Program-made: the position numbers and the translations under genes
NCBI RefSeq assembly: GCF_002844195.1
Contig: NZ_PEND01000001.1
Location: 558,001 to 622,000 of the forward strand
Origin: Halegenticoccus soli
GTDB taxonomy: Archaea; Halobacteriota; Halobacteria; Halobacteriales; Haloferacaceae
Direction: 5' to 3'
DNA: 64,000 bases
Part shown: one piece after another, positions 56,236 to 59,889 of the stretch
Numbering within the stretch: position 1 is the first letter of the stretch
Layout: each line of letters begins with the position of its first letter
Notes under the pieces: generated by a model
What the model saw: only the letters and a program-made list of their open reading frames with translations
Databases searched by the model: none
What the model was told of the DNA's origin: nothing

Positions 56236-57336
56236 CTACGACCGCCGCGCGAACCACTCGCAGACTCTCGGCCACCACTTCTCGTGCGCCTCCCGCGAGA
56301 CCGACAGGCCGACGTGCCCGGTCGGAAACTCGATGACCTCCGTGTCCTCGCTCGCGACGGCGTCGAGGAAGGGGAGGCTGGACTCGGCGGGGACGAACTG
56401 GTCGTCCCGGCCGACGATCAAGAGCACCGGCGCGTCGACGTTCGAGAGGTCGACCCGGCGGCCGCTCACCGTCAGCTCGTTCTCCATCAGCGCGTTCTCG
56501 CGGATCAGCTCGTCGACGAACTGCCGGTACACCTCCCCGGTCACGTCCGGGCCGTCGGCGCTCCAGAGGAGCCGCCGGGCGAAGTGTTCGACGTACTCCT
56601 CGTCGTCGAAGCGGTCCCACAGCCGCAGCGGGTTCGCGACGGCGTACTCGACCGGCTTGCGCAGTCCGAACCCCAGATCGAGCAGCGGAGCCGGCACGTT
56701 GCCGAGCGCGTCCCTGAACCGGGAGGCGTCCTGCCGCTCTACGATCCCTTTGAGCCGGAACACCCCGCCGTCGACGTTGTAGTCGAGCGGCGGCCCCTGC
56801 AGCCCCAGCGTCGCGACTTTTTCGGGGTACAGCGCCGCGTACATCGCGCACAGCGGCGCGCCGGTCGAGTACCCGACGAGGTGAACCCCGTCGGCCCCCG
56901 TCTCCTCGCGGGCGGCGTCGACGCAGTTGTCGAGGTAGCGACCGACGTAGTCGTCCAGCCCGACGTGCGCGTCGAGTCTCGACGGGTAGCCCCAGTCGAT
57001 CAGGTACACGTCGAAGCCCCGTTCGAGGAACCGGCGGATCACGCTCCGATCCGGTTCGAGGTCGACGATGAACGGCCGGTTGACGAACGCGTAGGCGTAC
57101 AGCACCGGCACGTCGCGCCGCTCCGCCGCGTCGGACTCGTACCGCCGGAGCGCGAGCTTGTTCTCCGCGTGAACGACCTCGTGCGGCGTCTCCTCGATCT
57201 CGACGGTCGCCATCCGGCGGAGCCGATCGGGGACGAGGGTCGCCTTCTCGGCGTCCGCCGCCGCCCTCTTCCACGCCTGTCGCTGCAGGGAAAACGGATT
57301 CGAGCTCGGGCTAGGGTTAGGATTCGTGGGACTCAT
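56236..57336 (-). CDS. PHA synthase (PhaC)-like alpha/beta hydrolase with serine nucleophile
   Basis: A 366-residue protein closely following class III PhaC layout: DVYLIDWGYPS, VGRYLDNCVDAA, RRVDLSNVDAPVLLIVGRDD and PTGHVGLSVSREAHEKWWPR. The lipase-box nucleophile, normally Cys in PhaC (G-x-C-x-G), is serine here: GYSTG at 155-159. It could be an esterase, a depolymerase-like paralogue or a weak synthase. No phaE or granule gene is adjacent. Confidence 0.85.
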   Translation of the reverse strand: MSPTNPNPSPSSNPFSLQRQAWKRAAADAEKATLVPDRLRRMATVEIEETPHEVVHAENKLALRRYESDAAERRDVPVLYAYAFVNRPFIVDLEPDRSVIRRFLERGFDVYLIDWGYPSRLDAHVGLDDYVGRYLDNCVDAAREETGADGVHLVGYSTGAPLCAMYAALYPEKVATLGLQGPPLDYNVDGGVFRLKGIVERQDASRFRDALGNVPAPLLDLGFGLRKPVEYAVANPLRLWDRFDDEEYVEHFARRLLWSADGPDVTGEVYRQFVDELIRENALMENELTVSGRRVDLSNVDAPVLLIVGRDDQFVPAESSLPFLDAVASEDTEVIEFPTGHVGLSVSREAHEKWWPRVCEWFARRS

Positions 57337-57946: not shown

Positions 57947-59254
57947 TCAGGCCGCCCCCCGCCTGTCGAGTTCCTCGATCAGCCGGTCGGCCAGCGACTG
58001 TAGCGACTCGTCCGGTAGCTCTCCGAGGTTCGCGGCGATCTCCTCCACCGCCTCGTCCGCCCGCTCGGCGTCAGTCGGCTCCCCGGTTTCTTCGGCCTTC
58101 TCGGCCTCCTCGACCTCCTCGGCCCTTCCCGCCTCTTCTGACTCGTCCGGCCCGGCCGACTCGTCCGCGCGGTCCTCCCCCACCGGTCCGTCTGTCCCCT
58201 CCGCGTCTTCCGCCTCCTCCCCGTCCTCTGCCTCCTCCCCGGCGCCTTCCGCTTCTTCATCGGCGGGCTCGTCGGCCTCGGCGCTCTCTGCCGACTCGCC
58301 GCCCTCGTCGGACTTTTCGTCCTCCCTCGACTCCCGGCCCTCTTCCGCCTCGCCGGCCGCCTCTCCGGTCGCTTTTTCCCCGGCCACCTCCCGCTCTTCG
58401 CCCGGTTCGCTCTCCTCTTCGGCCGTCTTCGCCTCCCCCGACTCTTCCGATTCCTCGGACTCTCCCGACTCCTCCGATTCCTCGGCCTCTTGCCCCTCCG
58501 CTTCCGTCTCTTCGGATTCCTCTTCGTCTCCACTCCGTTCGGCATCCCCTTCACCTTCCGCGCCCTGGTCCTCCCGCTCGTCCGCGTCGGTCGCTTCCCC
58601 CTCCCCCGATCGATCTTCGTCCGCCGATCGGTCGGCCGCAGTTCCGGATTCGGATTCGGTTTCGGATTCGCCGTCCGTCCCGTCCTCGCCGACGCCTTCG
58701 ATGAGGATCCGCTTCGCCTCCCGCGCGCCCGTCTCGACGGTGTCTCGGAGCTGCTCCGCCTCCGATTCGCCCTCGTCGCTCCCCGGTTCGAGGAACTCCG
58801 TCAGTTCGGTGTCCCCGTCCGACTCGACGAGCGAACCGATTGCCTCGCCCAGCGTCTCGCCGAGCCGCCGACCGACGGCCTCGCCGAGCGCCCGGCCGAG
58901 CGCGGCGCCGATCGACCGCGCGGCGGAGTCGAGCGTCCCGTCGTCCCCCGCGTCGGCCGCTCGTTCGTCGGATCCGCCCGCCGCCTCGGTTCCGTCGCGG
59001 CCGAACGCGGAGGACGCGTACGCCGCGAGTCGGCGGCCGACGGCCTCGCCGATCTCCGCGCCGAGCGCGTCGCCGAGGGTCCGTCCGAGGCGGCCGCCGA
59101 ACTCGCGGCCGAACGTCTCCCAGAAGATCGCGGTGTCGGGTCCCTCCTCCAGGTCGAGTTCCTCCGAGATCCCTTCGAGGTCGGACCTCGCTCGTTCGAG
59201 TAGTTCAACGACGCTGCCTCCGCCGGTCGGCGTTTTGAGATTCTGATCGCTCAT
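57947..59254 (-). CDS. Protein with two glycine-zipper helices and a long acidic disordered region
   Basis: A 435-residue protein I do not recognise. Residues about 45-80 and 105-145 are helices with Gly every fourth residue (GRLGRTLGDALGAEIGEAVG and GRALGEAVGRRLGETLGEAI). Residues about 175-395 are almost entirely Glu, Asp, Ser, Gly and Ala, in EES/EEA-type runs. The last about 35 residues are helical (ESLQSLADRLIEELDRRG). GGTGA lies 5-6 bases before ATG 59254. The gene precedes gvpO in the same direction of the map, with gvpO upstream in transcription, and could form or regulate a protein shell or membrane patch. This is inference. Confidence 0.75.
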   Translation of the reverse strand: MSDQNLKTPTGGGSVVELLERARSDLEGISEELDLEEGPDTAIFWETFGREFGGRLGRTLGDALGAEIGEAVGRRLAAYASSAFGRDGTEAAGGSDERAADAGDDGTLDSAARSIGAALGRALGEAVGRRLGETLGEAIGSLVESDGDTELTEFLEPGSDEGESEAEQLRDTVETGAREAKRILIEGVGEDGTDGESETESESGTAADRSADEDRSGEGEATDADEREDQGAEGEGDAERSGDEEESEETEAEGQEAEESEESGESEESEESGEAKTAEEESEPGEEREVAGEKATGEAAGEAEEGRESREDEKSDEGGESAESAEADEPADEEAEGAGEEAEDGEEAEDAEGTDGPVGEDRADESAGPDESEEAGRAEEVEEAEKAEETGEPTDAERADEAVEEIAANLGELPDESLQSLADRLIEELDRRGAA

Positions 59255-59370
59255 GGCGTTCACCTTACTTCCGGTCCGCAGCCACGCGTCACGCGGGCGG
59301 GTCCTCGCCGCAACGGTCCTCGCAGCAACGGTCCTCGCCCGCCACGGCCCTCAAGCGCGCCGCGGCGGCG

Positions 59371-59757
59371 CTACGTCGGTTCGCGCTTCCGCCTGTCGAA
59401 CTCGCTCCGGCGGTACCGCTCGACCCGGCGGAACTCGTCGACGCTTCCCGACTCGTCGACCCGGAGGTCGTACCGACCGAGGATGTCCTGCGTGTCGGGC
59501 ACCGATCGGCGTTCGATCACCTCGACGCCGACCGTCCAGCCGCCGTCGCCGGGGCTGACCTCGACGATCCCGTCGACGGGCCGCCGCAGTATCTTCTCGG
59601 CCGTGTCCCGGACCGCCTCGCGCACGGCGCGGACGTCGGCCGGCTTCGCGCCCCCTCTCGCGCCTTCGAGCGCGTCCGTGAGGCGCTCACGGGTCTCGCC
59701 GAGTGACTGTTCCCGCTCCGGTTCGGCGTCGGATGTGGACTCGGCCACGCGTTTCAC
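59371..59757 (-). CDS. gvpO: Gas vesicle protein GvpO homologue
   Basis: A 128-residue protein with the GvpO core: VDGIVEVSPGDGGWTVGVEV, then PDTQDILGRYDLRVDE and VERYRRSEFDR. An N-terminal helical charged region precedes it. In haloarchaea gvpO belongs to gas vesicle clusters, but no gvpA, gvpC, gvpN or accessory gvp gene is in this window. The start GTG 59757 lies about 28 bases after a weak TATA-like element; GTG 59748 is an alternative. Confidence 0.82.
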   Translation of the reverse strand: MKRVAESTSDAEPEREQSLGETRERLTDALEGARGGAKPADVRAVREAVRDTAEKILRRPVDGIVEVSPGDGGWTVGVEVIERRSVPDTQDILGRYDLRVDESGSVDEFRRVERYRRSEFDRRKREPT

Positions 59758-59889
59758 CCACCTGAGTCGTCGGTCCGGACGGTCATAATCGTTCTTCAGG
59801 TAGGAATATTGGATTTTCACCCGTAAGTCGATGAAAGTTGCGGGGCGGGCGGAACGCATTCGTCGTTCGCGGCCGAACGTGCGGGTGAC

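Follow-up and report, generated by a model that had tools for sequence, protein, structure and literature searches.

The gvpO2–zipper locus

The window that we analyzed, a 64,000-nucleotide (64-kb) stretch of the Halegenticoccus soli genome, carries two neighboring genes on its minus strand: gvpO2 (59371–59757), which encodes a 128-aa protein from a GTG start and is the second gvpO of this genome; and, directly downstream across a gap of 116 nt, a gene for a 435-aa protein (57947–59254; ATG at 59254) that we term the zipper protein. Sequence comparison establishes the identity of the former: it matches the Pfam GvpO family (PF05800) over profile positions 14–94 of 94 at 84.1 bits (E 7e-24), against a curated cut-off of 25 bits, and retains the PDTQDILGRY core, its AlphaFold2 model being of low confidence (mean pLDDT 64). 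Unlike Halobacterium GvpO, which follows gvpN, the window protein is a second copy outside a gvp cluster, forms a long branch and has the zipper gene as its partner. Since the gvp cluster on contig C4 of the same genome has its own gvpO, whose product is 47% identical to it, the window gene is by this comparison a divergent paralog, a duplicate GvpO.

Upstream of gvpO2 lies a promoter-like element, GAACGATTATRAYCGTCC (18 nt; 59777–59794, minus strand), whose TTATRA core precedes the GTG by about 26 nt, a spacing that suits a leaderless transcript. It recurs at equal distance upstream of gvpO2 in Halegenticoccus tardaugens (L079); a shared motif resembling it was sought near the gvpA cluster of H. 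soli itself and near the C6 cassette described below, and was found at neither. A promoter role for this element would be consistent with leaderless transcription of gvpO2, which agrees with Halobacterium, where gvpO gives the sole gvp transcript devoid of a 5'-UTR (PMC4390858).

The zipper protein has a distinctive architecture, all parts of which are encoded on the minus strand. Two perfect G-x3-G-x3 runs, GREFGGRLGRTLGDALGAEIGEAVG (residues 49–73; 59036–59110) and GAALGRALGEAVGRRLGETLGEAIG (residues 116–140; 58835–58909), are followed by an EAK-x-I-L helix (residues 168–186; 58697–58753), an acidic linker of 205 residues (191–395; 58070–58684) and a C-terminal helix motif, LGELPDESLQSLADRLIEELDRRGAA (57950–58039), within residues 406–435. 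The pattern GxxxGxxxGxxxG has eight overlapping matches against 0.12 expected, a count reached in none of 5000 shuffled sequences, and the linker has 46% D+E and 6% K+R; the net charge of the protein is −114. The description of two zipper helices and an acidic tail of some 200 residues given in the first-pass annotation of this DNA is therefore borne out. A shallow AlphaFold2 model of low confidence (mean pLDDT 49) places each zipper in a predicted helix some 42 residues long (residues 42–84, with pLDDT of about 65–78, and 104–145), and predicts a disordered linker with pLDDT below 50 over most of its length and C-terminal helices. That annotation had also envisaged insertion of the zipper helices into a membrane; the maximum 19-residue Kyte–Doolittle mean is as low as 0.6 (0.96 in the H. 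tardaugens protein), and membrane insertion is hence unlikely.

Pfam searches of the zipper protein recovered only Gly-zipper_Omp at 11 bits against a cut-off of 25. The GxxxG periodicity thus recalls the glycine-zipper families PF05433 and PF13488, to which it shows weak matches below the gathering cut-off (11 versus 25 bits); in contrast to them, it is not membrane-like and has the acidic linker and C-terminal motif in addition. Likewise, Pfam detected no Halo_GVPC repeats (PF05465), from which the protein differs in that its helices are built of GxxxG runs; its likeness to haloarchaeal GvpC lies in the proposed role only, that of an acidic, helix-rich partner on the outside with which GvpO makes contact.

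Further along the same strand (56236–57336) is a class III PhaC-like protein (TIGR01836, 298 bits, below the cut-off of 365) with a GYSTG motif, which places a serine where PHA synthases are expected to carry a cysteine; it may be a hydrolase instead of a synthase.

A gas-vesicle cluster elsewhere in the genome

The 64-kb window holds no gvpA-family gene and no complete gvp cluster (gvpA with gvpF, G, J, K, L and M). On C4, another contig of the same genome, by contrast, there are three gvpA-family genes and another gvpO, so the window gvpO, which had been described as an orphan, is one locally but not genome-wide. A search of the genome for gvpA and its companions, as the earlier reading had proposed, recovered on C4 an essentially complete cluster (L080) with Pfam matches for gvpA, F, G, H, J, K, L, M and O, where gvpA, J and M share a match to the Gas_vesicle family and were assigned by gene order. 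At the gvpI position is an acidic protein of 288 aa that has a basic tail and no Pfam match. GvpN had no match above cut-off in this cluster, and GvpC (PF05465) had none in the genome. As a separate observation, the C4 GvpO (L080, 10273–10935) has DUF5763 (58.9 bits) at its N-terminus, a domain that contains conserved cysteines and a histidine and is joined on by an acidic linker.

In lacking gvpC, the C4 cluster resembles the gvpC- and gvpDE-less clusters of Natrialba, Halopiger, Natrinema and Haladaptatus (PMC4390858; PMC3403918). Such GvpC- and GvpDE-less clusters were already known, several of the species having no visible vesicles (PMC4390858), and that of Natrialba magadii has an extended GvpI together with one additional gene (PMC3403918), the former paralleled by the enlarged GvpI-like gene on C4.

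Conservation of the pair

In H. tardaugens, gvpO2 and the zipper gene stand in identical order, 41 nt apart, and in both species a metallophosphoesterase gene and a 79-aa gene lie upstream of the pair; the zipper gene was thus present in both Halegenticoccus genomes compared. The proteins are 58% (GvpO2) and 47% (zipper) identical between the two species, and Nei–Gojobori estimates give dN 0.31 and dS 0.52 for gvpO2 (dN/dS about 0.6) and dN 0.42 and dS 1.12 for the zipper gene (dN/dS about 0.4).

A comparable arrangement occurs in another family. Every gvp locus examined in genus g40 has two gvpO genes, and in nine g40 loci a zipper gene comes directly after the second gvpO inside the gvp cluster, the pair being divergently transcribed from gvpA–gvpO1. 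The g40 and window zipper proteins have in common a GxxxG helix, which aligns with the second zipper helix of the window protein, an EAK-x-I-L helix (also kept in L079), an acidic linker and a C-terminal motif. An hhalign comparison of the two Halegenticoccus proteins with those of g40 gave 97.5% probability over the zipper and EAK helix, a value inflated by composition, as the comparison rests partly on low-complexity sequence. The C-terminal motif alone is therefore the better test: an HMM built from this motif in g40 proteins only, run against 350 ORFs, ranked the L079 zipper protein first (E 1.8e-7) and that of the window second (1.2e-6), with the next-best ORF at E 0.26. On this basis, we define a gas-vesicle-linked zipper family by a zipper helix, an EAK helix, an acidic linker and a C-terminal LSDEELQxLAxxLMDELExR; the window protein has all four marks, the EAK block being weak when scored alone (E 0.14–0.56).

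In a tree of 95 GvpO sequences, the two Halegenticoccus GvpO2 proteins form one clade (support 100/98). Constraining them and the g40 GvpO2 proteins to a single clade was not rejected (AU p 0.52), so the two sets are compatible with one origin or two. Genus comparisons thus establish both pairing and gene order; the pair is shared by two families, and the genomes concerned have gas-vesicle genes. The first-pass annotation had suggested that such pairs be sought in species without gas vesicles, and had named a complete gvp cluster elsewhere together with no conservation of the pair as evidence against its proposal; an essentially complete cluster is indeed present, and the pair is conserved.

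These comparisons bear on the idea, also raised there, that the locus is a relic of a gas-vesicle cluster, here taken as a former second cluster in decay. The presence of the same pair inside the g40 gvp clusters would accord with a pair left behind after the cluster had moved. Yet both frames are intact in two species at the identities given above, dN is below dS for both genes, the promoter-like element is conserved and a gvp cluster exists elsewhere in the genome; we accordingly regard decay as most improbable.

A different GvpO merits mention here. Four genomes of genus g5 (L082–L085) encode a second, short GvpO (105–111 aa) just before cysS and away from the gvp genes. It was considered as an orthologous orphan and rejected, having no zipper neighbor and falling on a separate long branch; it is another GvpO that left its cluster.

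The wider zipper/LDL set and its distribution

Four-gene cassettes combine two further zipper types with a protein that we term LDL (core LHLDLDGLFLDLLGLEVNLNPVTLDVSARPGENNLLGNLL) and a GvpI-like protein. One such cassette is on C6 of H. soli (L126, 5057–8202), comprising the LDL protein, a short zipper protein, a zipper protein with a SAP-like C-terminus and a GvpI-like protein with a basic tail. Representative zipper and LDL proteins reach no cut-off among Pfam and NCBIfam families. A first search with a single zipper protein as query gave mostly weak matches with some noise (e.g., L037, L040 and L045) and was useful only through the neighborhoods that it revealed.

We then surveyed 243 haloarchaeal genomes of the order, 103 of them with gvpA-family genes. 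LDL is found in 84 of the 243, and 82 of these 84 are gvpA-positive (Fisher 7e-42, a value that, like the others given here, overstates independence because the genomes are related); the two exceptions are a weak split match and a genome that is 70% complete. The five LDL query rows had been reached via the zipper protein and not picked for any link to gvp. Further, in genera g21, g52, g38 and g27, each with both gvpA-positive and gvpA-negative species, LDL is confined to the gvpA-positive ones. The window-type C-terminal motif was confidently detected in 25 genomes, every one gvpA-positive (Fisher 7e-11), of which 14 had supplied rows to the profile and 11 are independent. Specificity is lower for the zipper profile with the SAP-like end (A10; 81/90). 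Besides co-occurrence, genome comparison establishes physical linkage: window-type zipper genes lie 1.1–2.4 kb from gvpA in the 18 genomes measured, and LDL and zipper genes are found within or beside gvp clusters in other families (e.g., L091 and L131).

It had been proposed that the pair might form a distinct protein compartment or a system for shaping membranes, either of which would have borrowed a GvpO. The Halegenticoccus locus is unlinked to gvp, and four-gene zipper/LDL cassettes stand alone both on C6 and in family f7, which is in its favor; against this, LDL accompanies gvpA almost without exception, and the window-type zipper is restricted to gvpA-positive genomes and close to gvpA wherever the distance was measured. 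We hence give this proposal very little weight, whereas its premise that gvpO and the zipper gene belong together, with gas vesicles involved, is upheld.

Exclusion of GvpC

Comparative evidence likewise establishes an inverse relationship with GvpC. Among 80 gvpA-positive genomes, eight have a multi-repeat GvpC (two single marginal matches were not counted); LDL or the window-type zipper is present in none of these eight as against 65 of the 72 without GvpC (Fisher 2e-7, again among related genomes), leaving seven GvpC-less genomes with neither. At the genus level, for LDL only, the exclusion has p 9e-4, and in genus g38 both the GvpC type and the LDL type are present, in different species. 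As the GvpC-bearing clusters fall into a single GvpO clade (99/88), this exclusion may reflect a single split between two cluster lineages and not repeated replacement. Replacement of GvpN by the LDL cassette was also considered; this reading fails because the cassette accompanies GvpN in 46 genomes and is also found where GvpN is absent. Nor does GvpN distinguish the GvpC-bearing from the GvpC-less type.

Functional and evolutionary implications

In light of the above, the pair very likely serves gas vesicles in some accessory capacity. More specifically, it probably helps build or coat gas vesicles, since relatives of the zipper protein occur almost only with gas-vesicle genes and only in the absence of GvpC. 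We favor, as the likely explanation of the locus, a two-gene accessory module of a GvpC-less gas-vesicle system that was relocated away from the gvp cluster. Family f7, which retains GvpN and has its cassette unlinked to gvp, counts against this reading, as do the seven GvpC-less genomes with neither marker.

Briefly, we advance the following mechanism. The zipper helices might associate with one another and pack against the GvpA shell or nucleation complex, so as to coat or staple the vesicle shell; the acidic linker would keep the surface soluble in high salt; and the C-terminal helix might serve as a docking site. GvpO2 could bridge the zipper protein to GvpA, a link of the kind that Halobacterium GvpO is believed to make between GvpC and GvpA, and by this analogy would tether the zipper protein to the growing shell. 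A GvpC-like role for zipper proteins held in place by GvpO is, on this argument from analogy, a tentative suggestion somewhat short of even likelihood.

The main rival places the pair earlier: GvpO2 and the zipper protein could act as a soluble chaperone or nucleation scaffold before shell growth, preventing aggregation of the hydrophobic GvpA, J and M or setting where a vesicle starts. Halobacterium GvpO is required for gas-vesicle formation and binds monomeric GvpA, and a chaperone-like action has been suggested for it (PMC9372576); the strongly acidic zipper protein is not membrane-like, and the g40 pair adjoins gvpA and gvpO1, with transcription in the opposite direction. Alone, however, this does not explain why the zipper/LDL set is missing exactly where GvpC is present, and we consider it rather unlikely, though well ahead of decay or a separate compartment.

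If the accessory-module reading is extended, most gvp-bearing haloarchaea might possess a second, so far unrecognized gas-vesicle architecture, in which dispersed glycine-zipper/acidic and LDL proteins take the place of GvpC in reinforcing the vesicle from outside or in scaffolding its assembly, some of them held by a dedicated GvpO paralog; we offer this as a speculative generalization. No description of the zipper and LDL families was found in the literature searched, which took in few subscription papers. The papers on gvpC- and gvpDE-less clusters, as read, report the gap, the extended GvpI and one extra gene, and do not contain the zipper/LDL set. Hence, these families appear undescribed, while the gvpC gap itself was previously published.

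In Halobacterium, GvpO is indispensable, and it is still described as being of unknown function. The zipper/LDL set tracks GvpC-less clusters and so provides named candidates for their missing coat or scaffold. A second architecture of this kind might also account for the apparent silence of bare GvpC-less clusters as judged by the 11 classical genes alone, and the set would add to the parts available for engineering gas vesicles, which serve as ultrasound reporters and antigen carriers.

Finally, L130, L136 and L141 (genera g19 and g60) encode proteins of 443–621 aa that end in a zipper run, e.g., GQQLGEILGRRLGEMI; in L130 and L136 an LDL match falls in the same region as the zipper run, which suggests an LDL–zipper fusion.
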